This document shows, piece by piece, positions 20,596 to 57,701 of a stretch of DNA of 64,000 nt. The translations under genes and the position numbers were made by a program. How positions within the stretch are numbered: the first letter of the stretch is position 1; every line of letters begins with the position of its first letter. The stretch is from the NCBI GenBank assembly GCA_001800975.1, contig MGWK01000043.1, forward strand, positions 1-64,000. Direction: 5' to 3'. The notes under the pieces were generated by a model. The model was not told the DNA's origin. It searched no databases and saw only the letters and a program-made list of their open reading frames with translations. Source of the stretch: Flavobacteria bacterium RIFCSPLOWO2_12_FULL_35_11 (GTDB lineage: Bacteria > Bacteroidota > Bacteroidia > Flavobacteriales > Flavobacteriaceae).

Positions 20596-21009
20596 ATGAT
20601 TGAATTCAATTACGAAACGGATTTCAAATTAGAGAATGAAGAATTCATCCAAAATTGGATTTCTAATTGTATAGCATCTTATGGTTATAATGAAGGAGAG
20701 CTAAATTATATTTTTTGTGATGATGATTATTTGCTTAAATTGAATGTTGAATTTTTGGAACATGACACCCTAACCGACATTATTAGTTTTGATTATACGA
20801 TGGGAAAATTAATTAGCGGGGATATTTTTATTTCAGTTGAAAGGGTCCGTGAAAATGCTAAATTATTCAATCAAACTGTTGATAATGAATTAAATAGGGT
20901 GATGATTCACGGTGTTTTACACTATATGGGCTTTAAAGATAAAAACGAGAAGGATAAAGAGATCATGCGCGGTGAAGAGGATAAATGTTTGGCAATGTTT
21001 AATGCCTAA
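20596..21009 (+). CDS. ybeY: Endoribonuclease YbeY (rRNA maturation factor)
   Basis: A 137 aa metal-dependent RNase that acts in 16S rRNA 3' processing and ribosome quality control. The core segments are EHDTLTDIISFDY (about 55-67), LISGDIFISVERV and the metal-site motif MIHGVLHYMGFKDKNEKD (about 103-120). In E. coli the third metal ligand is a His ten residues after the first; here it is Asp (GFKD), a substitution that, as far as I know, is common in Bacteroidetes. Spacing is 6 bp after the DUF4175-like gene and 32 bp before mnmG, with a parS-like palindrome in the latter gap. Confidence 0.93.
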   Translation: MIEFNYETDFKLENEEFIQNWISNCIASYGYNEGELNYIFCDDDYLLKLNVEFLEHDTLTDIISFDYTMGKLISGDIFISVERVRENAKLFNQTVDNELNRVMIHGVLHYMGFKDKNEKDKEIMRGEEDKCLAMFNA

Positions 21010-21014
21010 TAAAC

Positions 21015-21028
21015 GTTCCACGTGGAAC
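21015..21028. promoter_or_regulatory. parS-like ParB-binding palindrome, copy 1
   Basis: GTTCCACGTGGAAC, a perfect 14 bp palindrome, in the ybeY-mnmG gap. In 16 bp form (21014-21029) it differs at one position from TGTTCCACGTGGAACA, a known form of the parS centromere site bound by ParB. A second copy follows mnmG. Confidence 0.8.
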
Positions 21029-21041
21029 AAAAAACGAAATT

Positions 21042-22913
21042 ATGTTTAGTACAATATATGATGTTATCGTGGTAGGAGGTGGTCATGCCGGTAGCGAAGC
21101 TGCAGCGGCAAGCGCCAATATGGGTGCGCACACCCTTTTAATTACGATGAATTTGCAAAACATTGCCCAAATGAGTTGCAATCCCGCTATGGGAGGAATT
21201 GCAAAAGGGCAAATAATTCGTGAAATTGATGCTTTGGGTGGCTATAGCGGTGTGGTTACCGATAAGACGGCCATTCAATTTAAGATGTTAAACAAATCGA
21301 AAGGTCCTGCTATGTGGAGTCCGCGCGCACAAAGTGACCGAATGCGATTTGCCGAATGTTGGAGGTTGATGCTGGAGCAAACAAGCAAGTTGGATTTCTA
21401 CCAAGATATGGTGAATGGACTTTTGTTTAAAGGCGACAAAGTTGTTGGCGTTAGAACATCTCTTGGAATTGAAATTAAAGCGAAATCAGTTATTCTAACT
21501 GCAGGAACTTTTTTGAATGGGTTAATTCATATAGGCGATAAAACTTTTGGGGGAGGAAGAGCGGGAGAAAGAGCTTCAACCGGAATTACTGAAGATTTAA
21601 TTAAAGTCGGTCTTGAAGCTGGCAGAATGAAGACCGGAACACCGCCTCGTGTTGATGGTCGATCATTGGATTATTCTAAAATGATTGAACAACCTGGAGA
21701 TGAATTTCCTGAAAAATTCTCCTACTTGGCGACCACCAAGCCATTGGAAATTCAGCGCTCTTGTTATATGACATATACTTCTTTGGAAGTGCACAATATT
21801 CTTCGGGAAGGTTTTGACAGATCACCCATGTTTAATGGCCGAATTAAAAGTATTGGACCAAGATATTGTCCATCAATCGAAGATAAAATTGACCGTTTTG
21901 CGACCAAAGATCGACACCAAATTTTTGTGGAGCCGGAAGGTTGGGATACCGTAGAGGTATATGTAAATGGTTTTTCAACTTCTCTGCCTGAAGAAATTCA
22001 GGACAAAGCACTGCGCAAAGTTGCGGGTTTTGAAAATGTAAAATTCTTCAGATTTGGCTATGCTATTGAATACGATTATTTTCCGCCAACCCAATTAAAA
22101 CATTCCTTGGAAACGAAGCGGATTAAAAATCTTTATTTCGCCGGACAAATAAATGGAACAACAGGCTATGAAGAAGCAGCTGCTCAAGGATTGATGGCAG
22201 GCATAAACGCTGCGCTCAATATTCAGAAAAAAGAACCATTTGTATTAAAACGTGATGAAGCTTATATTGGCGTTTTAATTGACGATTTAATCACAAAAGG
22301 AACGGAAGAACCTTACAGAATGTTTACTTCAAGAGCCGAATACCGAACTTTGTTACGTCAGGATAATGCCGATTTAAGGTTAACGCCAATGGCCTATGAA
22401 CTAGGAATGGTCTCAAAAGAACGAATGGACAGGGTTGTTGAAAAGCAGGATAAAACCGATTTGTTTGTTAAATTTTTATTGGAAACCAGTGTGCTTCCAG
22501 AAGAAATAAACCCGATTTTGGAGGCTAACGATTCTGCTAAAATTGACCAGTCTATGAAGATGTTCAAGATTGCGGCAAGACCCCAATTGAATTTCACCGA
22601 TCTTAGAAAACTGCCAAAAGTGGAAGCGTTTGTTATTGAAAACAATATCGACCGTGAGATTGAGGAGCAAACGGAAATCCATGTAAAATATGCCGGTTAT
22701 ATTGATAAGGAAAGGAACCAGGCCGATAAAGTGAATAGGTTAGAGAATGTTTCTATTCCGCCCAATTTCGATTATTCAAAAGTGAAATCTTTGTCCATAG
22801 AAGCACGCCAGAAACTAACTAAAATACAACCCATAACCATATCCCAAGCAAGCAGGATCAGTGGCGTTTCGCCGAGTGATATTTCTGTTTTGTTGGTTTA
22901 TATGGGGCGATAA
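21042..22913 (+). CDS. mnmG: tRNA uridine-5-carboxymethylaminomethyl synthesis enzyme MnmG (GidA)
   Basis: A 623 aa FAD-dependent enzyme that works with MnmE to modify the wobble uridine of several tRNAs. The dinucleotide-binding start is DVIVVGGGHAGSEAAAASAN (about 8-27), followed by SCNPAMGGIAKGQI, the GTPPRVDGRSLDY segment (about 199-211), GPRYCPSIEDKI (about 270-281) and NLYFAGQINGTTGYEEAAAQG (FAD site, about 365). Length is normal. It is bracketed by two parS-like palindromes, and in many bacteria this gene lies close to the replication origin. Confidence 0.98.
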   Translation: MFSTIYDVIVVGGGHAGSEAAAASANMGAHTLLITMNLQNIAQMSCNPAMGGIAKGQIIREIDALGGYSGVVTDKTAIQFKMLNKSKGPAMWSPRAQSDRMRFAECWRLMLEQTSKLDFYQDMVNGLLFKGDKVVGVRTSLGIEIKAKSVILTAGTFLNGLIHIGDKTFGGGRAGERASTGITEDLIKVGLEAGRMKTGTPPRVDGRSLDYSKMIEQPGDEFPEKFSYLATTKPLEIQRSCYMTYTSLEVHNILREGFDRSPMFNGRIKSIGPRYCPSIEDKIDRFATKDRHQIFVEPEGWDTVEVYVNGFSTSLPEEIQDKALRKVAGFENVKFFRFGYAIEYDYFPPTQLKHSLETKRIKNLYFAGQINGTTGYEEAAAQGLMAGINAALNIQKKEPFVLKRDEAYIGVLIDDLITKGTEEPYRMFTSRAEYRTLLRQDNADLRLTPMAYELGMVSKERMDRVVEKQDKTDLFVKFLLETSVLPEEINPILEANDSAKIDQSMKMFKIAARPQLNFTDLRKLPKVEAFVIENNIDREIEEQTEIHVKYAGYIDKERNQADKVNRLENVSIPPNFDYSKVKSLSIEARQKLTKIQPITISQASRISGVSPSDISVLLVYMGR

Positions 22914-22921
22914 TTTTAAGC

Positions 22922-22935
22922 GTTCCACGTGGAAC
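22922..22935. promoter_or_regulatory. parS-like ParB-binding palindrome, copy 2
   Basis: A second exact GTTCCACGTGGAAC, 9 bp after the mnmG stop and 1.9 kb from copy 1. The flanks give CGTTCCACGTGGAACC, one base from the P. aeruginosa parS form. No parA or parB gene is in the window. Confidence 0.8.
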
Positions 22936-22976: not shown

Positions 22977-23846
22977 ATGATTCCTGAAACAACGCATTAT
23001 TTAACTTGTAAAGATTACACGGTATCCGATAAAGATTTCGATTTATTGTATCATTCATCGTTAGATATGCTTGAAACTTTTCCTCAGCCAAAGGCTGAAG
23101 AATTGTCTGGCTATTATGAAAGTGATGACTATATTTCACATACCGATTCTAAAAAATCTGGAATAGATAAGTTGTATCAATTCGTAAAAAAAATAGCGTT
23201 AGCTTCAAAATTAGAACTGCTCAATTCTTTCAAAACTGCCGATAAAAATTTATTGGATGTTGGTTGCGGCACTGGTGACTTTTTACTGACCTGTAAAAAT
23301 AACGGGTGGAAGGTAACAGGAGTGGAGCCAAATGCAAAAGCCAAAATTATTGCAGAAAACAAATTAGCTGGAGAATTTGCTTCAGAAATTTATTCAGAAA
23401 TTCATCATTTAAAAAATGATTTGCAATTTGATGTAATCACCTTGTGGCATGTTTTGGAACATGTTCCGAACTTGGATAATTACATTGCAACACTTAAATC
23501 GAGATTAAAACCCGAGGGCATTTTAATTGTGGCCGTTCCAAATTTCAAAAGCTACGATGCAAACTATTATAAACAATTTTGGGCCGCTTATGATGTTCCA
23601 AGACATTTGTGGCATTTTTCAAAAAAATCGATTCGATTGTTGTTTGAAAAATATGAAATGAGCGTCGTTAAAATTTTGCCGATGTGGTTTGATTCTTTTT
23701 ACGTTTCCTTATTAAGTGAAAAATATAAAAACGGAAAAGGTAATTTTTTAAAGGCTTTTTACATCAGTTTAATCTCTAACATAAAAGCAATCACAACCAA
23801 AGAGCATTCTTCTTTAATTTACCTCCTTAAAAACGTTAAAAATTAA
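22977..23846 (+). CDS. Class I SAM-dependent methyltransferase
   Basis: A 289 aa Rossmann-fold methyltransferase. The SAM-binding motif I is LLDVGCGTGDFLLTC (about 92-106), followed by the acidic GVEPNAKA loop and FDVITLWHVLEHVPNLDNYI (about 151-170). The N-terminal 80 residues and the C-terminal part (DVPRHLWHFSKKS) are typical of Bacteroidetes methyltransferases in this locus with no known substrate. It sits 63 bp after mnmG, across a parS-like site, and may be in the same transcript. Confidence 0.85.
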   Translation: MIPETTHYLTCKDYTVSDKDFDLLYHSSLDMLETFPQPKAEELSGYYESDDYISHTDSKKSGIDKLYQFVKKIALASKLELLNSFKTADKNLLDVGCGTGDFLLTCKNNGWKVTGVEPNAKAKIIAENKLAGEFASEIYSEIHHLKNDLQFDVITLWHVLEHVPNLDNYIATLKSRLKPEGILIVAVPNFKSYDANYYKQFWAAYDVPRHLWHFSKKSIRLLFEKYEMSVVKILPMWFDSFYVSLLSEKYKNGKGNFLKAFYISLISNIKAITTKEHSSLIYLLKNVKN

Positions 23847-35774: not shown

Positions 35775-38700
35775 TTATTCAACACTAATTTTCTTGATGG
35801 TCTTTCCTGTTTTGGTATTTATTTGTACAATATAAACTCCGGTCGCTGTATTGATTGGCAAAGAAATTGTTCTTCTGTTAAGGTTTGTATTCCAATTATT
35901 AATGCGTTGTCCTAAATAATTATACAATTCTACACTTAGTATTTCTTCGACACTGTTGTTTTTTATTTGCAGCTCGCCAATGGTATTGTCCATAAATACA
36001 TGAATGCCTTCAACAATGATTTGTTCCTTAACTATCAATACTTCAGCAGACTCATCTTCTGCCACCAATTTTTGCATTTTGAAGATCAGCACAAACCTGT
36101 CAAGATATTGCCCCGCCTCTAAATTAATTTCGAAAGCTTTTTGGGAAATATTGTGGGTTTCACCTGTTAATTTATCTTTTATATGCAATGAAATATTTTC
36201 ATCCAAATTTTCAAGTTCATCAATTTTAATGGTTGCCAATCCGGCTTTCGCAATTTTAATACCCAAAGGCAATTCTTGGTCTGTATTAAAATTATTGACT
36301 GCCTGAATCACAAATTTTGCGCCGTCAAAAATCCAGAACATATCATCCTTATTAACATCGGCCATAGGCGCATCATAACCAATATCAAAATGATTTGTTG
36401 TGTTTTCAGTTAAGCCAACCAATAACTGTCTGACATAACCTTTTGGTGAGCTAAATTGCAAACGTATTTTAGCTTTTTCATCACGGGTTTCTCTTAATTG
36501 TTTAGCATTTGTTTTTTTGCTTCCTTTAAAAAATAAAGAACCATCAGCTATTCCTGCATCTCCCTCTTTTATAAACACGCGTTGACTGTTTTTGAATAGG
36601 ATTTCTCCACCTTCAACAGTTGTTGTAGTGCCTGAAATACCTGGGGGCAATGCGGTAATCACAAAAAATCCTTGATTTACGGGAATGTATCTTTCCGGTT
36701 TTTTGCCCCCGCCAACCGTTGGGGTTGAATTATTTATACGGCTATCTGTTGAATATGCTTCGACACCGCCCATTAAAGTATAGGTGGCATAACCGCCCAC
36801 ATATTCAGCTAAATAATGGGTTGCCCCTGAAAAATGGTGCCAAAAATACAAAGCGCCATTAAAAATATTGACTCCGTTTCTGCCTATTTCATTATTAATG
36901 GTTCCATATATATTGTCTAAAATAAATTCATTGGCATCTATGGCAGATGAATATGGATTACCGATTAACCGATCTACATTAACTAACGGTACGGCAAATT
37001 TAGAATCATTTCTTTTAAGATTTAATGTAATAGTTCCATTGTAGGGTTTTCCTCTAAACTTGTAGTTTTGATTGCTTGTAATCGCTGCTAATTTTGAAGT
37101 TCCTTTCATGGTATAACCTTCTCCAGGTTCTAGAGGGCTGTTTTCATTAATTCGAGGAAACCAAGAGTTGTAATCATCATCCTTACCATAAAACTTATAC
37201 AACCAGTAACCGCTTACAATTAAGTTTGGTGGTGTGTTTACCTCCAAATCAGCGGCATAATAAGCGGGTTGAAAATTAATGGCGTTGGCATTGTCAGCAT
37301 CGCCGTCAAGCATATTTCCTTTTACCGAAAATGGTAAATTTGGACTGGCAACGCCTGTAGCCGCACCGAATGCTGTAATTGGGCCAACCGATGAAGACCA
37401 ATAATTATAATTATAGCTGCTTGCAGTACCTTGTTGGTCTTTGTCTAAATAACCGCCACTTTTTTCATCTAAAATACTGCCTTCATCTTGCATTAGTTGA
37501 GATTCGCCCGCCAAATTAATAACGCCATCTAATTTTAAATAATGGGTAACCCTTAAACCGTGACCGGTTCCAGTACCCGTACCCAAATCCAAAGTACCGT
37601 CAATGGTTATTTTTCCGGAATTGTTTTTTAAACCCAAGACAGTAATATTTCTATTTCCAGAGGAAATATCATGGGATGTTTCCACAATATTCCAGTCAAC
37701 CGTTGTTGTGCCGTCAAGGCCTAGAGCATTTGGCAAGTTTTGGACATTGCTGTTTGCCCAAGTAGCCGCATTGCCCCAAACGCCATCAGCTGCCGAAACA
37801 TAAGGCAATGGCGCTGTTTGAGTGCCGGTTATTGTTTTGGTTTTATCTAAATACTTGATACGTAAAAAATTCCTGTCATCGGTTAAACCCTCAACCGTTG
37901 TCCCGTAGAAAGTATTAAAATCGTAATAGGCTTTAAGTTTATTCCAAGGGATGTTTGCAATTTCATTGCTTGGGCTTGCTTGTGGAAGTGCTTTTCCATT
38001 AACCAAATTACCCGTAACTTTTTCCGTTTCTTGGTTCATGAGGTATCTTACCTGATCTTGGCTTAGCCCTTGATCCCACACATAAACTTCATCAATTTCC
38101 CCTAAAAATGGATTTTTAATGTCATTTTCATCTTTGGAAACATATACCGCCCCAATTGAAAATCGATTATAATTAGGTGTTGGAGGATTCACCCCTTGAA
38201 CCGAACTATCTAATATCCCGTCAATATATAAAAATACCGTTCCGCTTGCATACACAAATGTTATATTGTGCCATTTTCCATCATTCAATATCATATTTGA
38301 TGTAAATCTTGGGGTTATGTCATTATCAACCATGACCTCAATGTTGTTGGTACCGTTTAATCTTAACTGCAATTTAGTTCCCTTAGCCATAATTGTTCTG
38401 GGATCTGCACTAGGGGTTACTCCCCGAACCCAAGCAGAAATGGTGAACGCATTGATATTTAAATTAAGGGCATATTCACCCACCAAATAATCTCCTGTTG
38501 CAATATTTACCGCACTTTTTTCTGTTAATTTAGGCGCTTTTCCAAACGTAAAGTACTTTGTGCCGTCAAAATCGTACCAGGTTTGTAGATTTAAACCCGC
38601 TGGTTTCAAAGGAATTACATCCACAATATCGGCATTGGTAAAATTTTCGGTTTCAGAAACAATTAACACATATTCTTCATCGGGTGTTTTTGCAAAACCA

Positions 38701-40766
38701 CTAAATGCGGCTAACGGAATGCCTACAAATACATTTTCAACATCACCGTCTAATGCTTCTTTTGATTCCACAATTTTCCATCTGCGGTTAATACGGGTTA
38801 ATGAGGTGGTAATTCCGGTAGCGATGGTTACGGTATTAGTGCTCGTGCCTGTATAAGAACCATTGTCACAGCCCCAAACCAAAAAATCTCCATCTTTTTT
38901 AAACTCATTTACATTGGCGCTGTTGGTGGCGGCTATTAATCCCAATCCAATGGTCACTTCATTTGTGTCATTGACACTTTTAGATTGTTTTTGATTTAAA
39001 TCGGAATTGTCTGCCCGTCCAATGCCTGCAATATTGTAATTAAATACTGCATTGACAGCGATATCCCAAATAATAGTTCCTGCGGAATTGACATAGTTTT
39101 TTTCAGCTTGTGTAGCTCCAAGGGTAATCCCATATTTGATCGCCAGATAGGTTTCAATTTTCGGGCGGTCGGCATCTGGTACGCGTTGTGCAAAGGTCAT
39201 GATTTCAGCCACTCGACCATTTAAATTTCCTGGCATACCATAATTTTTACCTATCCAATAAGGAGTTCCCCAAATTAAACCTTCATCAATATAGCCAACA
39301 TTTGTAAATGGGATATCATTAATGAAAGATGTACTTAAAAACTTGGAATTGTATAATAATTCTTGCTTTGTTGCCACTGTTGCATCATTTCTGACATTTA
39401 TAATGCCGGCATTGGCATAGGAAGTGCTTATCTCTGCTGTACTATTAAAAGACGCATCCGTATTTTGACCATAGGTCAACACTTCATTTGTAAAACGGGT
39501 TGTGTAATTTCCAAAACCAACACCTGTAACATCTCCAGCATCAAAGGAAATATCATCAATTGCTTTTTTAGAAACACCTGCAAAAATAGTGTTTCTTGAG
39601 GAAGTGCTTGAAAAAGGGGTGATTGTTGTGACGGGAGTTTTAGGCATCATTACAATAAAAATATCCTGGCTATAAAATCCGTTCTCACTATTGTATAAAT
39701 ACTGTTCAACACCTGTATTGTCGAATTCTATGACTGGGTTAAAATTTATATTTGAAGTAACATCATCTTTATAGGTAGGTTGGTTGGCCTCGATGTCCTG
39801 CATAGCATCCTTGCCGTTAGATCCTAAATCTTTCCATAAATGAACTTTAGAGGCTGTTGCCCTTACGCCTCTTGTCGCTTTTAGCCAAAGCCTAAAGTCG
39901 GCAGTAACGCCTCCGGGGCCAGGTCCTGTAACATCAAATACCTCTGCCTTCACTGTAAAAGTAAAAAGATTTGTGTCAGGAGCAGTATTGTTTGTAATAC
40001 TAATTATTGCTTCGTTATTAGCTGGGTCTCCAGCTGTAAATGTAACATCAAAGTAAAATGCTCCCCCAGGAATGACAGGAAAATAACTAAGAGGGGCAGG
40101 ATAATAAATATCTATTGGAGTAGTTATTGTAAAATTACTTACGGGTACCGGATCAATCGAGGCATTAGTACTTGTTATAGAACTTAGGACAAGATTACAA
40201 CTTCCTGTATTCACAATATAAAATCGTCTTGTTTTTGTCAAGCCCTGTTCCACAACACCAAAATAAGTTCCGTTGGTTGCTGTTGTTGTTATAGCGCCAT
40301 CAATTACATCGGCTAACGGGCTACCCCCCAAAACTGAAATGATGGGGGCTCTATTAACCGTTAAGGTAAAAGTAAAATAGCCTTCATTGGAGAATATAGT
40401 TATTATCGCATTTTCAGTTGTACATGCAGCATCACCTCTGGTAACAGTAAAATTTAGAAAATTTGTGCCATTGCAATCTGAAGGTTTAATATTTTCATTT
40501 GCATTAGTAGGCAAAACTGAAAAGTTAGGATTATTTGTTGTAATACTTTGAACCCTAACAGAACTGCAATTGCCTGTTTCTATATTCGTTATTTGAAATG
40601 TTAAACTGTTACCCGAATTAATAGTCAGAGTTCCGCCACTTGTAACTACCGCGCCCCCTAATATATTCACTTTCATATGCTGTGCATTAACAAGAGAACT
40701 AACTAATAAAGATAAAATTAAGAGGGTTTTAAAATTTAATATTCTTAATAGTAGGGGCTTTTGCAT
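35775..40766 (-). CDS. T9SS-secreted LamG protein, paralogue A (1663 aa)
   Basis: A very large exported protein. Signal peptide about 1-29 (ends LVNAQ). Residues about 30-280 hold two Ig-like (choice-of-anchor type) domains. About 290-550 is a LamG-like region with LWLKATRG, LNGRVAEIMTFAQRV and YLAIKYGITLG. A LamG domain lies at about 750-912 (ISAWVRGVTPS, LGEIDEVYVWD). From about 982 the C-terminal module shared with the genes at 47.9-62.3 kb begins: APLPY, GESQLMQ, YNYWSSSVG, IGNPYSSAIDA, LYFWHH, GGYATYTLMGG, FKNSQRVF. The last 75 residues are a T9SS sorting domain with LYNYLGQ and TATGVYIVQINTKTG. It is the only minus-strand member. Likely a cell-surface or released adhesin-like protein. 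Confidence 0.85.
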   Translation of the reverse strand: MQKPLLLRILNFKTLLILSLLVSSLVNAQHMKVNILGGAVVTSGGTLTINSGNSLTFQITNIETGNCSSVRVQSITTNNPNFSVLPTNANENIKPSDCNGTNFLNFTVTRGDAACTTENAIITIFSNEGYFTFTLTVNRAPIISVLGGSPLADVIDGAITTTATNGTYFGVVEQGLTKTRRFYIVNTGSCNLVLSSITSTNASIDPVPVSNFTITTPIDIYYPAPLSYFPVIPGGAFYFDVTFTAGDPANNEAIISITNNTAPDTNLFTFTVKAEVFDVTGPGPGGVTADFRLWLKATRGVRATASKVHLWKDLGSNGKDAMQDIEANQPTYKDDVTSNINFNPVIEFDNTGVEQYLYNSENGFYSQDIFIVMMPKTPVTTITPFSSTSSRNTIFAGVSKKAIDDISFDAGDVTGVGFGNYTTRFTNEVLTYGQNTDASFNSTAEISTSYANAGIINVRNDATVATKQELLYNSKFLSTSFINDIPFTNVGYIDEGLIWGTPYWIGKNYGMPGNLNGRVAEIMTFAQRVPDADRPKIETYLAIKYGITLGATQAEKNYVNSAGTIIWDIAVNAVFNYNIAGIGRADNSDLNQKQSKSVNDTNEVTIGLGLIAATNSANVNEFKKDGDFLVWGCDNGSYTGTSTNTVTIATGITTSLTRINRRWKIVESKEALDGDVENVFVGIPLAAFSGFAKTPDEEYVLIVSETENFTNADIVDVIPLKPAGLNLQTWYDFDGTKYFTFGKAPKLTEKSAVNIATGDYLVGEYALNLNINAFTISAWVRGVTPSADPRTIMAKGTKLQLRLNGTNNIEVMVDNDITPRFTSNMILNDGKWHNITFVYASGTVFLYIDGILDSSVQGVNPPTPNYNRFSIGAVYVSKDENDIKNPFLGEIDEVYVWDQGLSQDQVRYLMNQETEKVTGNLVNGKALPQASPSNEIANIPWNKLKAYYDFNTFYGTTVEGLTDDRNFLRIKYLDKTKTITGTQTAPLPYVSAADGVWGNAATWANSNVQNLPNALGLDGTTTVDWNIVETSHDISSGNRNITVLGLKNNSGKITIDGTLDLGTGTGTGHGLRVTHYLKLDGVINLAGESQLMQDEGSILDEKSGGYLDKDQQGTASSYNYNYWSSSVGPITAFGAATGVASPNLPFSVKGNMLDGDADNANAINFQPAYYAADLEVNTPPNLIVSGYWLYKFYGKDDDYNSWFPRINENSPLEPGEGYTMKGTSKLAAITSNQNYKFRGKPYNGTITLNLKRNDSKFAVPLVNVDRLIGNPYSSAIDANEFILDNIYGTINNEIGRNGVNIFNGALYFWHHFSGATHYLAEYVGGYATYTLMGGVEAYSTDSRINNSTPTVGGGKKPERYIPVNQGFFVITALPPGISGTTTTVEGGEILFKNSQRVFIKEGDAGIADGSLFFKGSKKTNAKQLRETRDEKAKIRLQFSSPKGYVRQLLVGLTENTTNHFDIGYDAPMADVNKDDMFWIFDGAKFVIQAVNNFNTDQELPLGIKIAKAGLATIKIDELENLDENISLHIKDKLTGETHNISQKAFEINLEAGQYLDRFVLIFKMQKLVAEDESAEVLIVKEQIIVEGIHVFMDNTIGELQIKNNSVEEILSVELYNYLGQRINNWNTNLNRRTISLPINTATGVYIVQINTKTGKTIKKISVE

Positions 40767-47822: not shown

Positions 47823-47954
47823 GCGCAAACATTACTTTTTAATGTTGTCTTATCTATGAATTTCTATGCCATAAATTTTGCATCCCCTGCGAAATAAACC
47901 GTCAAATAAATTTTTTGTTTGATTTTTTCTATTCCACAAATTAAAATGCACACT

Positions 47955-50900
47955 ATGAAAAAAACAAGAAATTTTTTGCTTTTATATTTATTTGTCATTC
48001 CCGGGTTTTCACAAACCACAACAATAACTGAAACTTTTGAGAAGTTATTTTCCCATAAAAAAAGTCGGACAATCAGGGTGGCTAAAATTGAAGATGAAAA
48101 ATCGTTAAATATTGCAGAAGTACTTTTTTTCGACAGAGATGGCGATAGTATTTTCAACCATATTGATATTGATGACGACAATGATGGCATTACAGATGTT
48201 GATGAAGAATTTTTTTGCAGAAATTCTCCAATTGCAAGTTTAGGAACTTTTTGTGATACAGACAATGATGGCGTTCCAGATGTTTTTGATTTGGATAGCG
48301 ACAACGATGGCATTCCTGATGTTGTTGAAGCAGGCCTTGGAAATTTGAGTAACGGAACAGGCCGGATAGCCGCAACTTGGGTAGACACCAATGGAAATGG
48401 TATGTATGATGCAGCAGAAACAAACACCCTTAGCGATACCGATGGAGACGGCGTTCCAAACTATTCGGATTTAGACAGTGACAATGACAGCATTTTTGAT
48501 GTGGATGAATCCGGCTCAGGAAACACGAATGCTTTTGAGATATATGAAAATGGGGATGGAGATATCAATGGTGACGGGGTTGGTGATGGACCAGATACCG
48601 ATTATTCTCGAGAAAATGATGTGAATTCAGACGGTATTTCAGAATATTATACTGATGGAATATTAGATGTTTATGATTATTTCGAAGGAGTTGATTTTGC
48701 AACTTCTTATGGAAACAGCAGTCAAGGAACAAGTCCGCTTTTTGTTAAAGATACAGATAGTGATGGAGTTCCGGACTATATGGATCTAACTTCTGAGAAC
48801 TCCATATTTGATATTTCTGGAACTTTATATGCCAATTTCGATGCAAATAGCGATGGTTCAATTGATGGCAGCATAGATATTGATCACGATGGAATATTGG
48901 ATGCTTTTGACACCAACACAACTGTTTTTGGCTCGCCAAGAGATTTAAACCAAAAATTGCAGTTGTATTTTGACGGCAGAAACGATTATATAGAAGAAGA
49001 CAATGGAATAAATATTGTGAACGGCCTGGCAGAAGCAACCATGATGGCCTGGATAAAATTAGACCCAAATTTTATGGAGCACGGAGCAATAATGGGACAA
49101 ACTAATTTTTGGATGCGTGTTAACGGCACAAAAAGGTTAAGAGTTGAAGTTCAGGACCAATATTCTATTTTGGCAGCAGAATCAACAGCGCTATCTTTAA
49201 ATAAATGGACTCATATAGCCGTGGTTTATGACGGATCAAATACAGTACAAAAAGTTAAATTATACATAAATGGGGAAAAAGTTGAAAGCTCAAATCCGGC
49301 AGGAATAGGATCCGTTATTGAGACAACAAGCACAAACACTAAATTTAGGATTGGAAGAAACCCATCAAATACCGATATTACTAACACAACTGCCGAATTG
49401 TTTAAAGGTGAAATGGATGAAGTAAGGGTTTTTAACAAAGCTTTAACCGATGACGAACTTAAAAAAATGGTATATCAGGAGCTTGACGAAGTAAACGGAT
49501 TTAACAGAGGTGTTGTAATTCAAAGGGATATTTCCCCAACAATTGGCACTAATTTGGTGAGATATTATAGAATGGATGTATATAAAGATGATATCGTTGA
49601 CAATTTAACAACGCCAACTTTAGATGTTGGTTCAGGGGCAAAAATGTATAACTTCAAAAATATTTATCCGCAAACGGCTCCATTGCCTTATGAAACAAAG
49701 GCTGATGGTGATTGGTCTAATGTCGCAAGTTGGTTGCATGGCGATGTTTGGGATATTGCTTCCGAAGCAACAAATAATGATTGGACCATTGTGCAAGTGA
49801 AAAACAACATAACAACTTCAAACAGCCATAACACATCAGGGCTTATAATTGAAAAGGACAAAAAATTAACGATTAAAGCGAGCCAGGAATTAAAAAATAC
49901 GTGGTACTTGGAATTGGACGGCGCCATAGATTTGGAAGGTGAATCACAGCTGGTGCAAACCGAAGGCAGTATTTTAGACCAAGATAGTGGAGGATTTATT
50001 GAACGCGACCAACAAGGCACCGCAAACAGTTTTAATTACAATTATTGGTCGTCTTCCGTTGGGACAATAACGCTAGATGGCGTTAACCAAAAAGGAAGCG
50101 GCGACGCAAGCTCCAATGAAAGTTATACTTTAAAAAATATTTTGATGGACGGTACAGTCGCCAGTGAAGCTAATAAATATGGCGTAATTAATTTTCAGCC
50201 GGCATATTGGGCGGCAGATTCTGGCATCACCAAACCAATCTTCATCAGTTCCTATTGGCTCTATACTTTTGATGGGACAGACAATAATTATGGCGCTTGG
50301 AAACCAATTAATGAAAACACACCACTATTAGCCGGTGAAGGCTATACCATGAAAGGAACTTCCGGAGGCGTGCCAATCACAAGCCAACAAAATTATGTTT
50401 TTAAAGGAAAACCAAATAATGGAGATTTTACCTTGCCGATTGCAGCAGGAAATAATAGACTTATTGGGAATCCTTACCCATCAGCAATGGACGCCAATAA
50501 ATTTATTGATGACAATATTAAAGATGGAGGAAGCAATACTGAAGGAAATATTTTTAATGGCGCTTTGTATTTTTGGGACCATTTCGGAGAAAAAAATTCA
50601 CATTATTTAGCGGCCTATGTTGGTGGTTATGCAACCTATACTAAAATGGGTGGCGCAAGGGCTTATTCAAATGATGGACGAATAAATAATAATGGAAGCC
50701 ATGGCGACAAAAGACCAGGACAATTCATCCCTGTTGGACAAGGATTTTTTGTCATTGCCGTAACGGATACCTTGAGAAACTCCTTGAGAGAGCAAATAAT
50801 AATCAAAGGCGGAAAGATTGTTTTTAAAAACAGCCAGCGCATATTTATGCCAGAATCAACTAGCAATTCCGTTTTTATGAAAGGCGTGGGTGAAAAATCA

Positions 50901-51656
50901 GCAAATACTTCTGGGGAGAAAGCAAAAGATACTCTGGAAAACATCGATAAAAGACCCAAAATCTGGCTACAATTTGATTCTCCGGCAGGGTATCATCGGC
51001 AGTTATTGGTGGGTGTTGACGAAAACGCCTCCAATTTTTTCGATTTGGGTTACGATGCGCCCATTGCCGATATTGGCAAAGAAGATATGTTCTGGACTTT
51101 TGACGGCGGTAAATTTGTGATTCAGGCCGTAAACAATTTCAGCACCGACCAGGAATTGCCGTTTGGAATGAAGTTAAGCAAAGCGGGATTGGCACGCATT
51201 AAAATTGAGGAACAACAACATGTGGATGAAAATATTTCAGTTCATATAAAAGACAAATTAACAGGGGTAGTGCATAACATTTCACGCAAACCTTTTGAAA
51301 TTAATTTGGAACCAGGAAACTACCTCGACAGGTTTTCACTAACCTTTAAAATGTATAAATTGGTAGAAGAAGATGTAAATGCCGAAATTTTGCTGGCGTC
51401 AGAATCGCCACCAATTATTGAAGGGTTACACATCTTTATGGACAACGCCATTGGAGAACTTCAAATAAAAAATAACAACGGTGATGAAATAACCGGCATC
51501 ACACTATACAATTATTTGGGACAAACCCTTAAAACTTGGAATACAAACCTTAACAGAAGGACAATTTCATTGCCTATAAATATGGCAACGGGCGTTTATT
51601 TTGTCCGGATAAGCACCAAAAACAACATGAATGTAAAGAAAATTGTGAAACTGTAA
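47955..51656 (+). CDS. T9SS-secreted LamG protein with calcium-binding repeats, paralogue B (1233 aa)
   Basis: The start ATG 47955 gives the signal MKKTRNFLLLYLFVIPGFSQ; the longer frame from 47919 adds no leader. Residues about 55-315 contain repeated Asp-rich loops of the thrombospondin type 3 kind (DRDGDS, DDDNDGITDVDE, DTDNDGVPDVFDLDSDNDG), expected to bind Ca2+. LamG domain about 335-495 (YFDGRNDYIEEDNG, KGEMDEVRVFNKALTDDEL). From about 572 the shared C-terminal module: APLPYETKADG, GESQLVQTEGSILDQ, YNYWSSSVG, IGNPYPSAMDANKFI, LYFWDHFG, GGYATYTKMGG, FKNSQRIF. T9SS sorting domain in the last 75 residues with LYNYLGQTLKTWN. Likely a surface or secreted adhesin-like protein. Confidence 0.87.
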   Translation: MKKTRNFLLLYLFVIPGFSQTTTITETFEKLFSHKKSRTIRVAKIEDEKSLNIAEVLFFDRDGDSIFNHIDIDDDNDGITDVDEEFFCRNSPIASLGTFCDTDNDGVPDVFDLDSDNDGIPDVVEAGLGNLSNGTGRIAATWVDTNGNGMYDAAETNTLSDTDGDGVPNYSDLDSDNDSIFDVDESGSGNTNAFEIYENGDGDINGDGVGDGPDTDYSRENDVNSDGISEYYTDGILDVYDYFEGVDFATSYGNSSQGTSPLFVKDTDSDGVPDYMDLTSENSIFDISGTLYANFDANSDGSIDGSIDIDHDGILDAFDTNTTVFGSPRDLNQKLQLYFDGRNDYIEEDNGINIVNGLAEATMMAWIKLDPNFMEHGAIMGQTNFWMRVNGTKRLRVEVQDQYSILAAESTALSLNKWTHIAVVYDGSNTVQKVKLYINGEKVESSNPAGIGSVIETTSTNTKFRIGRNPSNTDITNTTAELFKGEMDEVRVFNKALTDDELKKMVYQELDEVNGFNRGVVIQRDISPTIGTNLVRYYRMDVYKDDIVDNLTTPTLDVGSGAKMYNFKNIYPQTAPLPYETKADGDWSNVASWLHGDVWDIASEATNNDWTIVQVKNNITTSNSHNTSGLIIEKDKKLTIKASQELKNTWYLELDGAIDLEGESQLVQTEGSILDQDSGGFIERDQQGTANSFNYNYWSSSVGTITLDGVNQKGSGDASSNESYTLKNILMDGTVASEANKYGVINFQPAYWAADSGITKPIFISSYWLYTFDGTDNNYGAWKPINENTPLLAGEGYTMKGTSGGVPITSQQNYVFKGKPNNGDFTLPIAAGNNRLIGNPYPSAMDANKFIDDNIKDGGSNTEGNIFNGALYFWDHFGEKNSHYLAAYVGGYATYTKMGGARAYSNDGRINNNGSHGDKRPGQFIPVGQGFFVIAVTDTLRNSLREQIIIKGGKIVFKNSQRIFMPESTSNSVFMKGVGEKSANTSGEKAKDTLENIDKRPKIWLQFDSPAGYHRQLLVGVDENASNFFDLGYDAPIADIGKEDMFWTFDGGKFVIQAVNNFSTDQELPFGMKLSKAGLARIKIEEQQHVDENISVHIKDKLTGVVHNISRKPFEINLEPGNYLDRFSLTFKMYKLVEEDVNAEILLASESPPIIEGLHIFMDNAIGELQIKNNNGDEITGITLYNYLGQTLKTWNTNLNRRTISLPINMATGVYFVRISTKNNMNVKKIVKL

Positions 51657-52067: not shown

Positions 52068-55000
52068 ATGAAAAAAATAATTACCCTGCTGTTTATCTGT
52101 GGTTTGTCAACATGGATGTTTTCTTTAACTACAAGTGCAAATGATCATTTTGAATCGGGAATTCAAGGCTGGTCAACTAACAGTTTAGATTCCGATGAGA
52201 ATTCAAGCGCCACTTACAACTTGCACGGAGAAAAAATTTATTTTTCCGACAATCTTTCCTTTTTAAATTATTTATGGGAAGATACTAAAACTGCTGAAGC
52301 TGGTTTTAAAAAAGTATTTGAAAAAGTTAATGCGGTTATTTTAAAAGAAAATATTGTTGAGGGCGAAATAGAAGTGGCTTTGAAAAATGATGTGGCGTTT
52401 ACAATTGGTTGTCCTGCACCTATAGTCGTAAACAATAATTTAGGTAAATGTTCCGCAATTGTAATTTATGCTAAGCCAACATCAAGTGCTGGCAACACGG
52501 TTACTCAAACTGCAGGCTTACCCTCTGGTTCAGCGTTTCCTGTTGGGGTAACCACCAATATATTTGAAGAAAAAGACGATCAGAGTGGCGATATTATTGG
52601 CAGTTGTAGTTTTACCGTAACGGTAAATGACACCCAAGCACCAACGATAAGTTGTGTTGGAAATAAAACAAAATCAGCTGAGATAGGAAAATGCTATTAC
52701 ACGGTAGTTGGAACAGAATTTAATCCAACAGTGAGTGGTGACAATTGTGGAGTTGCCTCGGTAACCAATGACTTTAATGCAAGTTCAACTTTGGCAGGAG
52801 CACAAATACCAAATGGAACAATAATTAAGTGGACAGTTACAGATACAGCAGGTTTAAGTGGCGTTTGTAGTTTTACCGTAACGGTAAATGACACCCAAGC
52901 ACCAACAATACCTGTTTTACCAGACTTAATTAGCAGCTGTTCTTTTACTGTCCCAGTGCCTACAACCACCGATAATTGTGGCGGTATTGTTACGGTTACC
53001 ACAAGCACTACCGATTTAAGATTTGATGCCTCGGGGTCAATTTTTTGGACTTTTAAAGATGCTTCAGGAAATTCCACTGCACCAGTTGAACAAAAAGTTA
53101 TCATTAATGATGTTGCTCCTGTGCCAGTTATTGCAACATTACCAACTCAAACCATTACTGGCTGTCAAATTTTAAGTATTTCAGAATTAACAATTCCAAA
53201 AGCTATAGATCAATGTGATGGTGAAATTCTTGGAACATTAAGTCCAGGTTTCGTATTTCCGTTTTCTTTTTATGGAACCAATACTATTGAATGGGAATTT
53301 ATTGATAGCAAAGGTAATAAATCATTACAAACACAAGATATTACACTTATTCCACCTAATATTAATGGAGGAACTATATCAGGGACTTTTAATTCTACCG
53401 TTTTTTCAGATCAAATTGATATTTCTTCATGTGATACCGCAATTTCTATAGCATTGAATTTGGTGGGTGAAATAGGGACTATTATTCAGTGGGAGAAATT
53501 TGCAGTTAATCAAAGTGTTTGGGAAGTGATTCCAAATACCAATACCAAAGATAATTATATCGCATCATTTGGAGTAAGCGCATTGATATCTACCTATTAT
53601 AGAGTGTTGGTTCAAGTGGGAACTTGCACCGAGTATTCCAATAATTTCTATATTAGAGCGCTCCCCGCTGGATCAGCTCCAACTGTTGAAAGTTTAGATC
53701 CCGATGATAAATATTGTTTAGGAGAATCTGTAAATCTTGTTGCAATAAGTACTTATATAGCTACGCAAGAAACAATACCTAATTCGTCAGGAGATTTTAA
53801 TCAAGGGCAACTAAATACGCAAGATCCCGATTCTTGGCTTGTTGATGACAACCCAGGTGGATTTACTGCTGGCGGAAATGCAACGAAGCCTAGAAATTGG
53901 TCTGCAACAAATGATCATCCTTTTGGAGGTATTATTTATGATAGTCAAGAAGGTAAGTTTAGTATAGCTTATGGAGATTATGGTTCTAGTCAATACAAGG
54001 GAAAAAACCCAACAACTTTGGAAAGTCCAATTATGGATTTATCAAATGCGTTATCAGCAAGCCTAGATTTTGATCAAGCTTATTATTTTTCAACCAATGA
54101 TTATGCAAATATTGAAATATCAATTGATGGTGGAGTAACATATGTTCCATTAAGAGAAATGCATGTTGCTGGAAGTCCAAGTACAAATTGGTATACTGCA
54201 GGAACTGCCGCATCATATGTTGGTTCAGACGCCACTCATTATAATTTTGATACAGACAATACATCCATTTCTCTTGAGGCTTATTTAGGCCAAAGCAATG
54301 TTCGAATTAGATGGTCATTTACAGGAACTAGTGATCAAAGTGTATGGGCAATGGATAATATTTTTGTTAATAAAGAGGTTTTTGTTAATACTGAATTGGA
54401 GTTGACAAATGGTATTGGAGATCCTGATGTCCTTCCAATTATAGTTGGACAAACAGATGTAGCGTTTAGTTTTACAGCTGATACTCCCGGGGTTCATGAA
54501 TATGGAGGTACGGCGTTAATAAATGGTTGCAGGACGTACAGTGCAGAGGGTACAGTTTTAATTAATATTTCCGTGTCCAATTCTTATGCTGGTAAAAACA
54601 TTGAATTTACACCTGCCGAATGTGGTCAAAACACGGTGCAGTTAAATGCCTATGACAATTTTATTTCGGCGAATGCCAATGCTGCTAAAGGAGCATATAT
54701 TGCACCGCCCGGTTGTACAGCATGTGACGATCCCGGAACTGAAGATCCAGGAGAATGGTCCTGGGTAAGACAAGGGACTACAACCTCTTGCATACCCGTA
54801 TTTTTTTCTGATCGAAATGATCCTGACGCAACCTTTACTGGAGGAGCAGGAACCTATACCTTGACTTGGACTGTTAATGGATGTTCAAGCGATATAACGG
54901 TAACAATTACTGATTGTAGTGAAGTTAATTTTGATGGCGTTGATGATTATGTCGATTTTAATAATAATTATAACTTAAATGGGGATTTTAGTTTGGAAGT

Positions 55001-57701
55001 TTGGGTTAAACCCGAATCAGTTTCAGGTACACGAACGATTTTTTCAAAACGGGATGCCAATATACCGGCTACAGGATATGATTTGAAATTAAATGAAGAT
55101 AAAATTTCATTTAATTGGAATGCTACAGAATCAATTGTTTCACCTTATCCAATTACAACAAATAGGTGGTGCCATATTGCTGTTACACACACCGGAAGCT
55201 TGTATAATTTATATATTGACGGTATTTTGATCAGCAAAGCAGGAGGTGCAACACCTGCCATTAATACTAATAATTGTATTCTTGGCGCCAATAAATCTGG
55301 CAGTAATCCAGTCAATTATTTTAATGGATATATGCAGGAATTACGCATTTGGAATAAAGTTTTAACACCCGAGCAATTACACCAAATGATGAATCAAAAA
55401 ATTAAAAAAAGCGGAACTGTTGACGTTATTGGTGAAGTTGTTCCTATAGTAATTAATGGCTTGTCTTGGTCCAATTTAGCCGGGTATTATCGCATGGACA
55501 CTCAATGTGGTCATATCATGCCATCTGCAGGTGCAATCAAAGGCAGATTAAGAAATATATTCACGCCTCAACCATTAACTGCGCCATTGCCTTATACAAC
55601 TAAAGCAGGAGGCTCAGGTTCTTGGGATGATCCTTTAACTTGGACAGAACCTGTTTGGAGCATTCCAAATGCTGCTGGTATTGGAAAAGACATCAATGAT
55701 TTAGACCCAAGTCATTCTGCAAACTATAAAACTCCAATAGATTGGAATATTGTTCAAACTTCACATAATATAATAGCAAATAGAGATATAACCTTGTTAG
55801 GTTTAATTTCGGAATCTGGAAAATTAACAATGGATGGAGTTACTTCGATGGATCCTTTAAATAATCCGGGAACGGGAACGGGTCAAGGCTTATGGATTAC
55901 GCATTATCTAAAATTGAATGGTGTTATTGATTTACAAGGAGAATCACAATTGGTGCAGAAAAGATATGGATATTATGATGTTGACGATAACTTTACAACT
56001 ATCCAATTTAGTGAAAGTATTTTTGAAGAAACTAGCATTGGTTATATTGAACGCGACCAGCAAGGCCAAAAAAACAGTTTCAGTTATAATTATTGGTCAT
56101 CTCCGGTTACACTTCAAGGTGCAGCAAATAATGCACCATATAAACTTCCTAATGTTTTAAAGGATGGTACAAATCCGGCTACTCCAATAAATATTAATTT
56201 TGTTGATGGGGCTTTTTCGGCTGATAGAGCGCTCTCAAGTCCAATAAAAATAACCAGCAGATGGATTTGGACCTACAAGGCGACCGTAAGTGCTGACCCT
56301 TGGGCCAATTATTATCAGTGGACTAACGTTGGGTATTGGGGTAATATTAGAGCGGGAGACGGATTTACCATGAAAGGAACCGGTGGTGCTGCTGCAATAA
56401 ATGCATTGCAAAATTATGTTTTCGTCGGAAAACCAAATTCAGGGGATATTCAAACAACACTGTTAACTCCCGGCCAAATTTATTTGATAGGAAATCCTTA
56501 TCCTTCGGCGTTGGATGCAGATGAATTTATTAAAGATAACATTAAGGAAACCATTAATGGTAAAGTAGGGCGAAATAACGTAAATGTTTTTAATGGTGCT
56601 TTATATTTTTGGGATCATTTTACGTTATCCAACAATCATTTATTGGCAGAATATGAAGGAGGTTATGCAACTTATAACTTAATGGGTGGTGTTATTGGTA
56701 TAGCAAATGTTCTATTAGCTGCAAATACAGGTAAATCAGGCACAAAAGTGCCTGAACGCTATATACCTGTTGGACAAGGATTCTTTGTGGAGGCAATTTT
56801 AGATCCTCTTTTAAGTACAACAAATACAACAATTACTGGAGGAAATTTAAATTTCAAAAACAGTCAGCGGGTTTTTAAACGTGAAGGTTTTACCGGAACA
56901 AACAATGGATCTTTATTTATGAAAACAGCAGCATCTAAAAAATCGAAAACGCAGGAATCGCAAGAAACAACTACCGATACCAGATCAAAAATTAGATTGA
57001 TATTTGATTCTCCAACAGGCTATCACCGTCAGATATTGGTTGGTGTTGACGAAAATGCCTCAAACCATTTCGATTTGGGCTATGATGCGCCAATTGCCGA
57101 CATTAACAAAGAAGACATGTTCTGGAATTTTGACGGAAGCAAATTTGTAATTCAGGGCGTTGACAATTTTGATAAAAAGCAGGAATTGCCCTTGGGATTG
57201 GTCATTTCAAAAGCAGGTTTGGCAAGCATAAAAATTGATGCTGCAGTAAATTTAGATAAAAAAGCCACTGTTTATATATTGGATAGGTTAACCGGAATTT
57301 CTTATGAAATCAGTAAAAATCCTTTTGAAATTACTTTAGAACCTGGCGAATATCTAGACAGATTTTCCGTGACATTTAAGCCGGGAAAAAAGAATGACCA
57401 AGATGATGATGATGATGATGATGAAAACCATCAAAAAAGCAATACAGATTCATTGATTGCAGCTGGAGAATTTCTTGTGTATATGAATAACAGAACTTCC
57501 GAATTGCAAATTACCAAACCTGTTGATACCGAAATACTGATGGTTAATTTATACAATTATTTAGGACAATTGGTTAATGCCTGGAACACGAATCTTAATG
57601 AATCAGCTACTTATCTGCCGATAAAGGTATCCGCAGGGGCTTATATTGTTCAAATAAATACCAAAAACGGGCCGGTGGTTCAAAAGGTAATTGTGGAATA
57701 A
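52068..57701 (+). CDS. T9SS-secreted HYR/LamG protein, paralogue C (1877 aa)
   Basis: The largest member of the family in this window. Signal peptide about 1-25. Residues about 108-370 are HYR-like Ig domains with repeated CSFTVTVNDTQAPTI and DNCG words. About 430-900 is a region with Ig-like and jelly-roll features (SFTGTSDQSVWAMDNIFVN, Cys pairs). LamG domain about 951-1115 (VNFDGVDDYVDFNNNYN, MQELRIWNKVLTPEQL). The shared module begins near 1165: APLPYTTKAGG, GESQLVQ, YNYWSSPV, IGNPYPSALDADEFI, LYFWDHF, GGYATYNLMGG, FKNSQRVF. A run of seven Asp codons (about 1779-1785) links it to the T9SS sorting domain (about 1797-1877), where LYNYLGQLVNAWN is visible. Confidence 0.87.
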   Translation: MKKIITLLFICGLSTWMFSLTTSANDHFESGIQGWSTNSLDSDENSSATYNLHGEKIYFSDNLSFLNYLWEDTKTAEAGFKKVFEKVNAVILKENIVEGEIEVALKNDVAFTIGCPAPIVVNNNLGKCSAIVIYAKPTSSAGNTVTQTAGLPSGSAFPVGVTTNIFEEKDDQSGDIIGSCSFTVTVNDTQAPTISCVGNKTKSAEIGKCYYTVVGTEFNPTVSGDNCGVASVTNDFNASSTLAGAQIPNGTIIKWTVTDTAGLSGVCSFTVTVNDTQAPTIPVLPDLISSCSFTVPVPTTTDNCGGIVTVTTSTTDLRFDASGSIFWTFKDASGNSTAPVEQKVIINDVAPVPVIATLPTQTITGCQILSISELTIPKAIDQCDGEILGTLSPGFVFPFSFYGTNTIEWEFIDSKGNKSLQTQDITLIPPNINGGTISGTFNSTVFSDQIDISSCDTAISIALNLVGEIGTIIQWEKFAVNQSVWEVIPNTNTKDNYIASFGVSALISTYYRVLVQVGTCTEYSNNFYIRALPAGSAPTVESLDPDDKYCLGESVNLVAISTYIATQETIPNSSGDFNQGQLNTQDPDSWLVDDNPGGFTAGGNATKPRNWSATNDHPFGGIIYDSQEGKFSIAYGDYGSSQYKGKNPTTLESPIMDLSNALSASLDFDQAYYFSTNDYANIEISIDGGVTYVPLREMHVAGSPSTNWYTAGTAASYVGSDATHYNFDTDNTSISLEAYLGQSNVRIRWSFTGTSDQSVWAMDNIFVNKEVFVNTELELTNGIGDPDVLPIIVGQTDVAFSFTADTPGVHEYGGTALINGCRTYSAEGTVLINISVSNSYAGKNIEFTPAECGQNTVQLNAYDNFISANANAAKGAYIAPPGCTACDDPGTEDPGEWSWVRQGTTTSCIPVFFSDRNDPDATFTGGAGTYTLTWTVNGCSSDITVTITDCSEVNFDGVDDYVDFNNNYNLNGDFSLEVWVKPESVSGTRTIFSKRDANIPATGYDLKLNEDKISFNWNATESIVSPYPITTNRWCHIAVTHTGSLYNLYIDGILISKAGGATPAINTNNCILGANKSGSNPVNYFNGYMQELRIWNKVLTPEQLHQMMNQKIKKSGTVDVIGEVVPIVINGLSWSNLAGYYRMDTQCGHIMPSAGAIKGRLRNIFTPQPLTAPLPYTTKAGGSGSWDDPLTWTEPVWSIPNAAGIGKDINDLDPSHSANYKTPIDWNIVQTSHNIIANRDITLLGLISESGKLTMDGVTSMDPLNNPGTGTGQGLWITHYLKLNGVIDLQGESQLVQKRYGYYDVDDNFTTIQFSESIFEETSIGYIERDQQGQKNSFSYNYWSSPVTLQGAANNAPYKLPNVLKDGTNPATPININFVDGAFSADRALSSPIKITSRWIWTYKATVSADPWANYYQWTNVGYWGNIRAGDGFTMKGTGGAAAINALQNYVFVGKPNSGDIQTTLLTPGQIYLIGNPYPSALDADEFIKDNIKETINGKVGRNNVNVFNGALYFWDHFTLSNNHLLAEYEGGYATYNLMGGVIGIANVLLAANTGKSGTKVPERYIPVGQGFFVEAILDPLLSTTNTTITGGNLNFKNSQRVFKREGFTGTNNGSLFMKTAASKKSKTQESQETTTDTRSKIRLIFDSPTGYHRQILVGVDENASNHFDLGYDAPIADINKEDMFWNFDGSKFVIQGVDNFDKKQELPLGLVISKAGLASIKIDAAVNLDKKATVYILDRLTGISYEISKNPFEITLEPGEYLDRFSVTFKPGKKNDQDDDDDDDENHQKSNTDSLIAAGEFLVYMNNRTSELQITKPVDTEILMVNLYNYLGQLVNAWNTNLNESATYLPIKVSAGAYIVQINTKNGPVVQKVIVE
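52604..52645 (+). repeat. 42 bp exact direct repeat in paralogue C, copy 1
   Basis: The same 42 bp, coding for the end of an HYR domain (CSFTVTVNDTQAPT), occurs again at 52865-52906 in the same frame. It indicates recent duplication or gene conversion of one HYR unit. Confidence 0.9.
52865..52906 (+). repeat. 42 bp exact direct repeat in paralogue C, copy 2
   Basis: Second copy of the repeat at 52604-52645, 261 bp (87 codons) further on, matching one HYR domain length. Confidence 0.9.

Follow-up and report, generated by a model that had tools for sequence, protein, structure and literature searches.

The window analyzed here, a stretch of 64,000 nucleotides, contains the gene mnmG (gidA; 21042–22913, forward strand) between two copies of the same palindrome, for which the gene serves as both landmark and spacer. 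The upstream copy, site 1 (21015–21028), lies in the gap between ybeY (20596–21009, forward strand) and mnmG, after the ybeY stop codon at 21009 and 13 bases before the mnmG ATG at 21042. The downstream copy, site 2 (22922–22935), is separated by 8 bases from the mnmG stop at 22913 and precedes the ATG at 22977 of a gene for a class I SAM-dependent methyltransferase (22977–23846, forward strand). Both are exact copies of GTTCCACGTGGAAC, and neither was assigned a strand. The identities of YbeY and MnmG were taken from the NCBIfam equivalog models TIGR00043, matched above its cut-off, and TIGR00136, matched at 836 bits (cut-off 525), and the methyltransferase was assigned from a match above cut-off to Pfam PF13489 (Methyltransf_23). 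The initial annotation, which had reported identical palindromes flanking mnmG at these positions and no further copy in the window, was accurate in both respects: the only exact copies are these two, and when up to two mismatches were allowed there was one extra match, at 14127, which has two mismatches. Among the named MnmG proteins in the matches listed, the closest was from Lutibacter sp. E21, at 96% identity, and on sequence grounds we take Lutibacter (Flavobacteriaceae) to be the source genus. The window also encodes four very long proteins (35775–40766, reverse strand; 47919–51656, 52068–57701 and 59461–62343, forward strand) with signal-peptide-like starts and C-terminal stretches that appear similar by eye; we presume that these are probably secreted type IX substrates.

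Both window sites match the parS core GTTYCACGTGRAAC exactly. As 16-mers they read CGTTCCACGTGGAACA and CGTTCCACGTGGAACC, so neither is a complete TGTTCCACGTGGAACA; their outer bases, C...A and C...C, likewise depart from the full 16-mer TGTTYCACGTGRAACA, which is common in parS and is not a requirement. In 100 dinucleotide shuffles the mean number of matches with up to two mismatches was 0.11 and no shuffle reached three, in agreement with the earlier judgement that a double occurrence by chance was very unlikely. A scan of the whole genome gave exactly two exact copies of GTTCCACGTGGAAC, 1.9 kb apart, in the draft assembly (3,556,264 bases, 98 contigs), with none scattered elsewhere, and two copies with two mismatches, one of which is the match at 14127. 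The copies are thus few and clustered, as is typical of parS, and the number of exact copies expected by chance from base composition is ~0.003 per genome.

The sites are strongly conserved within the genus. An exact site was present in 37 of 38 Lutibacter genomes, the one genome without it being a 69%-complete assembly, and 33 of the 38 have exactly two exact sites, which in 32 of these are spaced 1,839–1,911 bp apart. One genome (G007) has two exact sites 46 bp apart and a site with one mismatch 1.9 kb further, two genomes have three exact sites (G022 and G024) and two have one (G028 and G035). Among 22 distinct upstream stretches of the genus, obtained from the 27 of 42 loci that had enough upstream sequence, the bases that flank the 14-mer vary. 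The intactness of the 14-mer itself in these stretches is by construction, because the loci were fetched via an exact match, and the independent figure for it is the 37 of 38 genomes given above.

Beyond the genus, sites within one mismatch of GTTYCACGTGRAAC were counted at the 80 best named mnmG loci among the matches listed (loci L036–L064 and L157–L164 lie outside the analyzed set). A site was identified within 500 bp of mnmG in 78 of these loci, upstream of the gene in 77, downstream in 75 and on both sides in 74; the two loci with no site at mnmG were from Capnocytophaga and a Saprospiraceae MAG (L228 and L243). Across the same 80 loci, 192 sites were found in the 79 kb adjoining mnmG versus 34 in 1.50 Mb elsewhere, that is, 2.4 per kb versus 0.02 per kb. 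The outer bases vary among the conserved sites (T is first in 150 and A last in 152 of the 192), and constancy at the other positions of our positional table is partly by construction, because the table was built from sites preselected as lying within one mismatch of four parS forms. In Chryseobacterium the form beside mnmG is TGTTTCACGTGAAACA, the consensus used for parS in PMC10197239, and GTTTCACGTGAAAC is on both sides of the gene in all six Chryseobacterium loci. The gene neighborhood is also kept, in that ybeY adjoins mnmG upstream in 73 of the 80 loci and the methyltransferase gene starts 610–1,150 bp away in 15 of the 16 downstream-site loci that have no match to it within 600 bp, and therefore attachment of the sites to mnmG itself is inseparable from conservation of the neighborhood at these loci.

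It is the broader form GTTYCACGTGRAAC that is widely conserved, and not the exact Lutibacter form GTTCCACGTGGAAC, which occurs in only 58 of 296 phylum genomes. The broader form was detected in 58 of the 61 genomes of a phylum sample, mostly in two copies, and was absent in three. For 33 of these genomes, which were the first listed of the 61 and not a random draw, coordinates were mapped, and in 32 of them GTTYCACGTGRAAC is within 1 kb of mnmG. By site, 68 of the 75 listed are within 1 kb of the gene (including one in G054 that falls within mnmG), or 68 of 70 without the five sites on a second contig (C1) of G062. Sites on each side of mnmG within 1 kb were found in 18 of the 33, a count that leaves out G042, in which the second site is 1,957 bp away, and G054. 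The conservation disposes of the notion that the palindromes are a chance occurrence or a shared repeat with no function: their placement is kept in 78 of the 80 best named loci while the flanking bases vary and, with ~0.003 exact copies expected per genome, we give this reading a vanishingly small probability.

Several other configurations were observed near mnmG. In Flavobacterium sp. MC2016-06 (L198) there are 12 parS-like sites (≤1 mismatch) in ~1.1 kb, from about 1,190 to 77 bp upstream of the gene, and four of them are GTTCCACATGGAAC at steps of 116–118 bp, which would fit tandem duplication of a unit carrying parS; site arrays upstream of mnmG were present in other Flavobacterium loci as well. 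Sites of the GTTCCACATGGAAC type (GTTCCATGTGGAAC on the other strand), in which the central CG is changed, were identified beside mnmG in six loci (L169, L172, L173, L198, L206 and L223) and recur in Tenacibaculum, Kordia and others. It is possible that GTTCCACATGGAAC is a lineage-specific variant of parS that could co-vary with ParB. A candidate third site, which has two mismatches and was seen ~2.8 kb upstream of the gene in several genomes of Lutibacter and Tenacibaculum, falls inside the coding sequence of a DUF4175 protein and was set aside as a coding motif; the corresponding position in the genome of the window has four mismatches.

The location of the palindromes also raises the question of whether they are operators or attenuators of mnmG, at which a regulator or an RNA hairpin would control mnmG and the downstream gene with no role in segregation. 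Such a role would suit the placement of site 1 just 13 bases before the mnmG ATG, and each site could form a hairpin of five pairs in the forward-strand RNA. Terminator-like matches were slightly more numerous than in shuffles (four versus a mean of 2.2, sd 1.5), one of them being site 1 on the minus strand, and promoter-like matches were at the shuffle level (nine versus a mean of 8.7). However, the RNA of the two sites folds hardly better than shuffled sequences (z −0.79 and −0.97), and in 38 of the 192 conserved sites the fourth pair sets a C against an A, so that RNA pairing would be lost there. Several genomes also have further sites arrayed on the upstream side of mnmG (twelve in the one Flavobacterium), which would be odd for an operator. 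Given in addition that the sequence of the sites is that of parS and that their place is the skew origin described below, we consider control of mnmG to be a very unlikely function for them.

The parS reading had been made to depend on a ParB homolog in the genome, and a chromosomal ParAB pair was found, with parA adjoining parB on contig C89, a different contig from the one with the parS sites. The ParB has the Pfam domains ParB_N and HTH_ParB, scores above the cut-off of TIGR00180 and has ParB and Spo0J as its closest PDB chains, with Noc chains close behind. The stretches GERR and ENIQR, which we take to be its CTP-binding motifs, are both kept. In Caulobacter numbering, anchored on Noc and Spo0J alignments, its residues Q162, G170, K171, R173, N178, G201 and R204 are Spo0J-like and not Noc-like. 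Of these, R173 and G201 are the parS-type residues and their Noc-type counterparts are Q173 and R201 (PMC7383237); as judged by these two residues and the HTH_ParB domain, the genome is predicted to encode a ParB able to read parS. That the sites are instead bound by a Noc-like nucleoid occlusion protein is an idea that draws on the same comparisons, since the Noc model TIGR04285 gives a match to this ParB too and the near PDB relatives of the protein include Noc chains. That match, at 240 bits, is nevertheless below the cut-off of 315, the reader of the Noc site NBS has Q173 and R201 where this protein has R173 and G201, and there are only two exact sites in the genome, whereas Noc sites are reported to be scattered over the chromosome (PMC4331003). 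We therefore regard Noc-type binding as extremely improbable. A second pair of ParA-like and ParB-like proteins is encoded on another contig of this genome (C55, L006, at about 126.4–129.6 kb); only the N-terminal ParB domain was matched in Pfam in its ParB-like member, and the pair is probably from a mobile element.

Because the genome of the window is a draft, placement of the origin relative to the palindromes rests on relatives. The third-codon GC skew was computed per gene strand, which removes the effect of gene direction, in 100 blocks of 20 kb from three single-contig genomes of the genus Lutibacter and two of other genera of the family, with sampling steps of 5–10% of the circle in four of the five. 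In all five genomes the skew changed from negative to positive at parS, within resolution, which leads us to conclude that parS marks the origin. The best-fit origin was no more than 4% of the circle from parS in each of the five (near-equal fits reach 6%), and the reverse change was nearly antipodal to parS. In the most densely sampled genome, G010, the skew stayed below zero until 34 kb ahead of parS and was clearly above zero from 54 kb past it, and between those points it was close to zero apart from one negative block at 34 kb past parS; further blocks of opposite sign were seen in G026 at +0.20 and in G171 at +0.45. The origin bias that the initial annotation had anticipated for the sites is accordingly borne out in these relatives. 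In the window itself the raw GC skew is small and noisy, as is the third-position skew pooled over distances up to 10 kb from mnmG, and neither places an origin alone.

The genes that are commonly expected at an origin were located elsewhere. In the five skew-sampled genomes the distance between parS and dnaA is 0.35, 0.28, 0.34, 0.39 and 0.44 of the circle, and in the ten single-contig genomes in which dnaA and parB were mapped, which include those five, dnaA is at 0.19–0.45 and the best parB match at 0.15–0.42 of the circle from parS (the far stronger match was used in G235 and G263, which have two ParB-type matches). The closeness of parAB to parS and the origin that is common, and not universal, in bacteria was thus not seen. 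No cluster of DnaA boxes was identified within 10 kb of mnmG at 62 loci, where there were at most three boxes (≤1 mismatch) per 400 bp, and none was seen in the blocks sampled from three single-contig genomes, where there were at most three per 500 bp; as a result, oriC itself was not located. The start of a deposited chromosome is often set at dnaA, on the presumption that the origin is there, and six of the ten mapped genomes start at dnaA. For Lutibacter profundi LP1T, the authors state that the chromosome start was moved to dnaA (PMC5219744).

An SMC-loading centromere would be expected in a genome with ScpA. ScpA (PF02616) was not matched in any of the six genomes searched for it (G000, G010, G025, G026, G140 and G171), in which parS is nonetheless conserved, and in a control PF02616 was matched in 9 of 14 genomes. 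Since ScpA was found in none of the six, the usual partner of SMC may be missing. A search for SMC_N gave strong matches in frames of 551–558 and 359–365 residues, which by their size we presume to be RecN and RecF, and weaker matches in frames of 929–973 residues, among which a divergent condensin is possible. That no ScpA was matched fits the report of no known condensin in two Bacteroidetes in PMC10197239.

Taken together, these results make us highly confident that the two palindromes are parS sites and constitute a chromosomal centromere at the replication origin. The recognition of the palindrome as a parS core in the initial annotation is upheld by the parS-type residues of the ParB, by the restriction of exact copies to two and by the skew origin in relatives. 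ParB is known to nucleate on parS and spread, with ParA moving the complex (PMC7333895), and its spreading in vitro requires CTP (PMC7053999). At this locus, we infer that a ParB dimer would read each palindrome and close as a CTP clamp, that clamps would then slide off over mnmG and its neighbors, and that the 1.9 kb stretch flanked by these loading points would form the core of a ParB–DNA complex, which ParA would move, separating the new origins. The link between parS and mnmG is most simply explained if mnmG stayed beside the origin, with parS kept in the short gaps that flank it, and dnaA and parAB came to lie elsewhere. Retention of mnmG would be in keeping with the standing of gidA as a classical origin gene; it has been grouped with dnaA, parA and parB among the genes often near the origin (PMC2099444). 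The further proposal of a functional meeting between ParB loading and transcription of mnmG is neither supported nor refuted, since its sole evidence is positional. We speculate, as a doubtful extension, that parS–mnmG–parS is an origin cassette over much of Bacteroidota, in which ParB crowding might couple mnmG expression to the number or state of origins and which would work without SMC–ScpAB and without parAB or dnaA nearby. If true, the cassette would have two loading points for ParB clamps, facing one another with a single expressed tRNA-modification gene between them.

A practical consequence is that parS at mnmG marks the skew origin and can be located by plain string matching, with dnaA more than a quarter of the circle away in the five sampled genomes. 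Where the origin is placed matters for growth-rate estimates based on coverage, for gene-dosage work and for studies of rearrangement. The arrangement also raises the questions of why sites on both sides of the gene have been kept in so many lineages and what the ParB–parS complex recruits where no ScpA is found. The parS site itself is well known. Among the literature matches listed, which covered few subscription papers, none described mnmG as bracketed by parS; the tables of the 2007 parS survey by Livny may include the arrangement.

Several published origins can be compared with the one described here. In gut bacteria, including a Bacteroides and a Muribaculum, origins were placed by parS and GC skew and were not systematically at dnaA (PMC10197239); mnmG/gidA and the bracketing of a gene are unmentioned in the parts of that study examined. 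Within the same family as the window, Ori-Finder together with GC skew predicted an oriC next to mnmG in Mariniflexile litorale (PMC11278836), in which dnaA is at odds with the skew, and in Algorimicrobium (PMC12843772), so that the predicted origin is at mnmG as it is here; parS is not described in these two papers. PMC11278836 is inconsistent on this point, its text placing oriC at mnmG and ter at leuB and the legend of its Figure 3 giving the reverse. The picture reported for the reduced endosymbiont Blattabacterium, which lacks both dnaA and gidA, is different, with the skew origin in dapB (PMC2768785). Relative to the classical gidA origin region as outlined in PMC2099444, mnmG is at the origin here and dnaA and parB are not. 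Compared with the chromosomal ParABS systems of Bacillus, Caulobacter, Pseudomonas and others, the 14-bp core is common to both, with C or T as its fourth base as in two known forms, and the parS-type residues of ParB, the small number of sites and their proximity to the origin in relatives are also alike. The differences are that ScpA was not found in any of the six genomes, that in the ten single-contig genomes parB and dnaA are separated from parS by no less than 15% of the circle, whereas a cluster of origin, parS and parAB is common elsewhere, and that the sites bracket mnmG in many Bacteroidota. Thus parS, an origin away from dnaA and a predicted oriC beside mnmG were already known, and what is unusual is the highly conserved parS–mnmG–parS arrangement.
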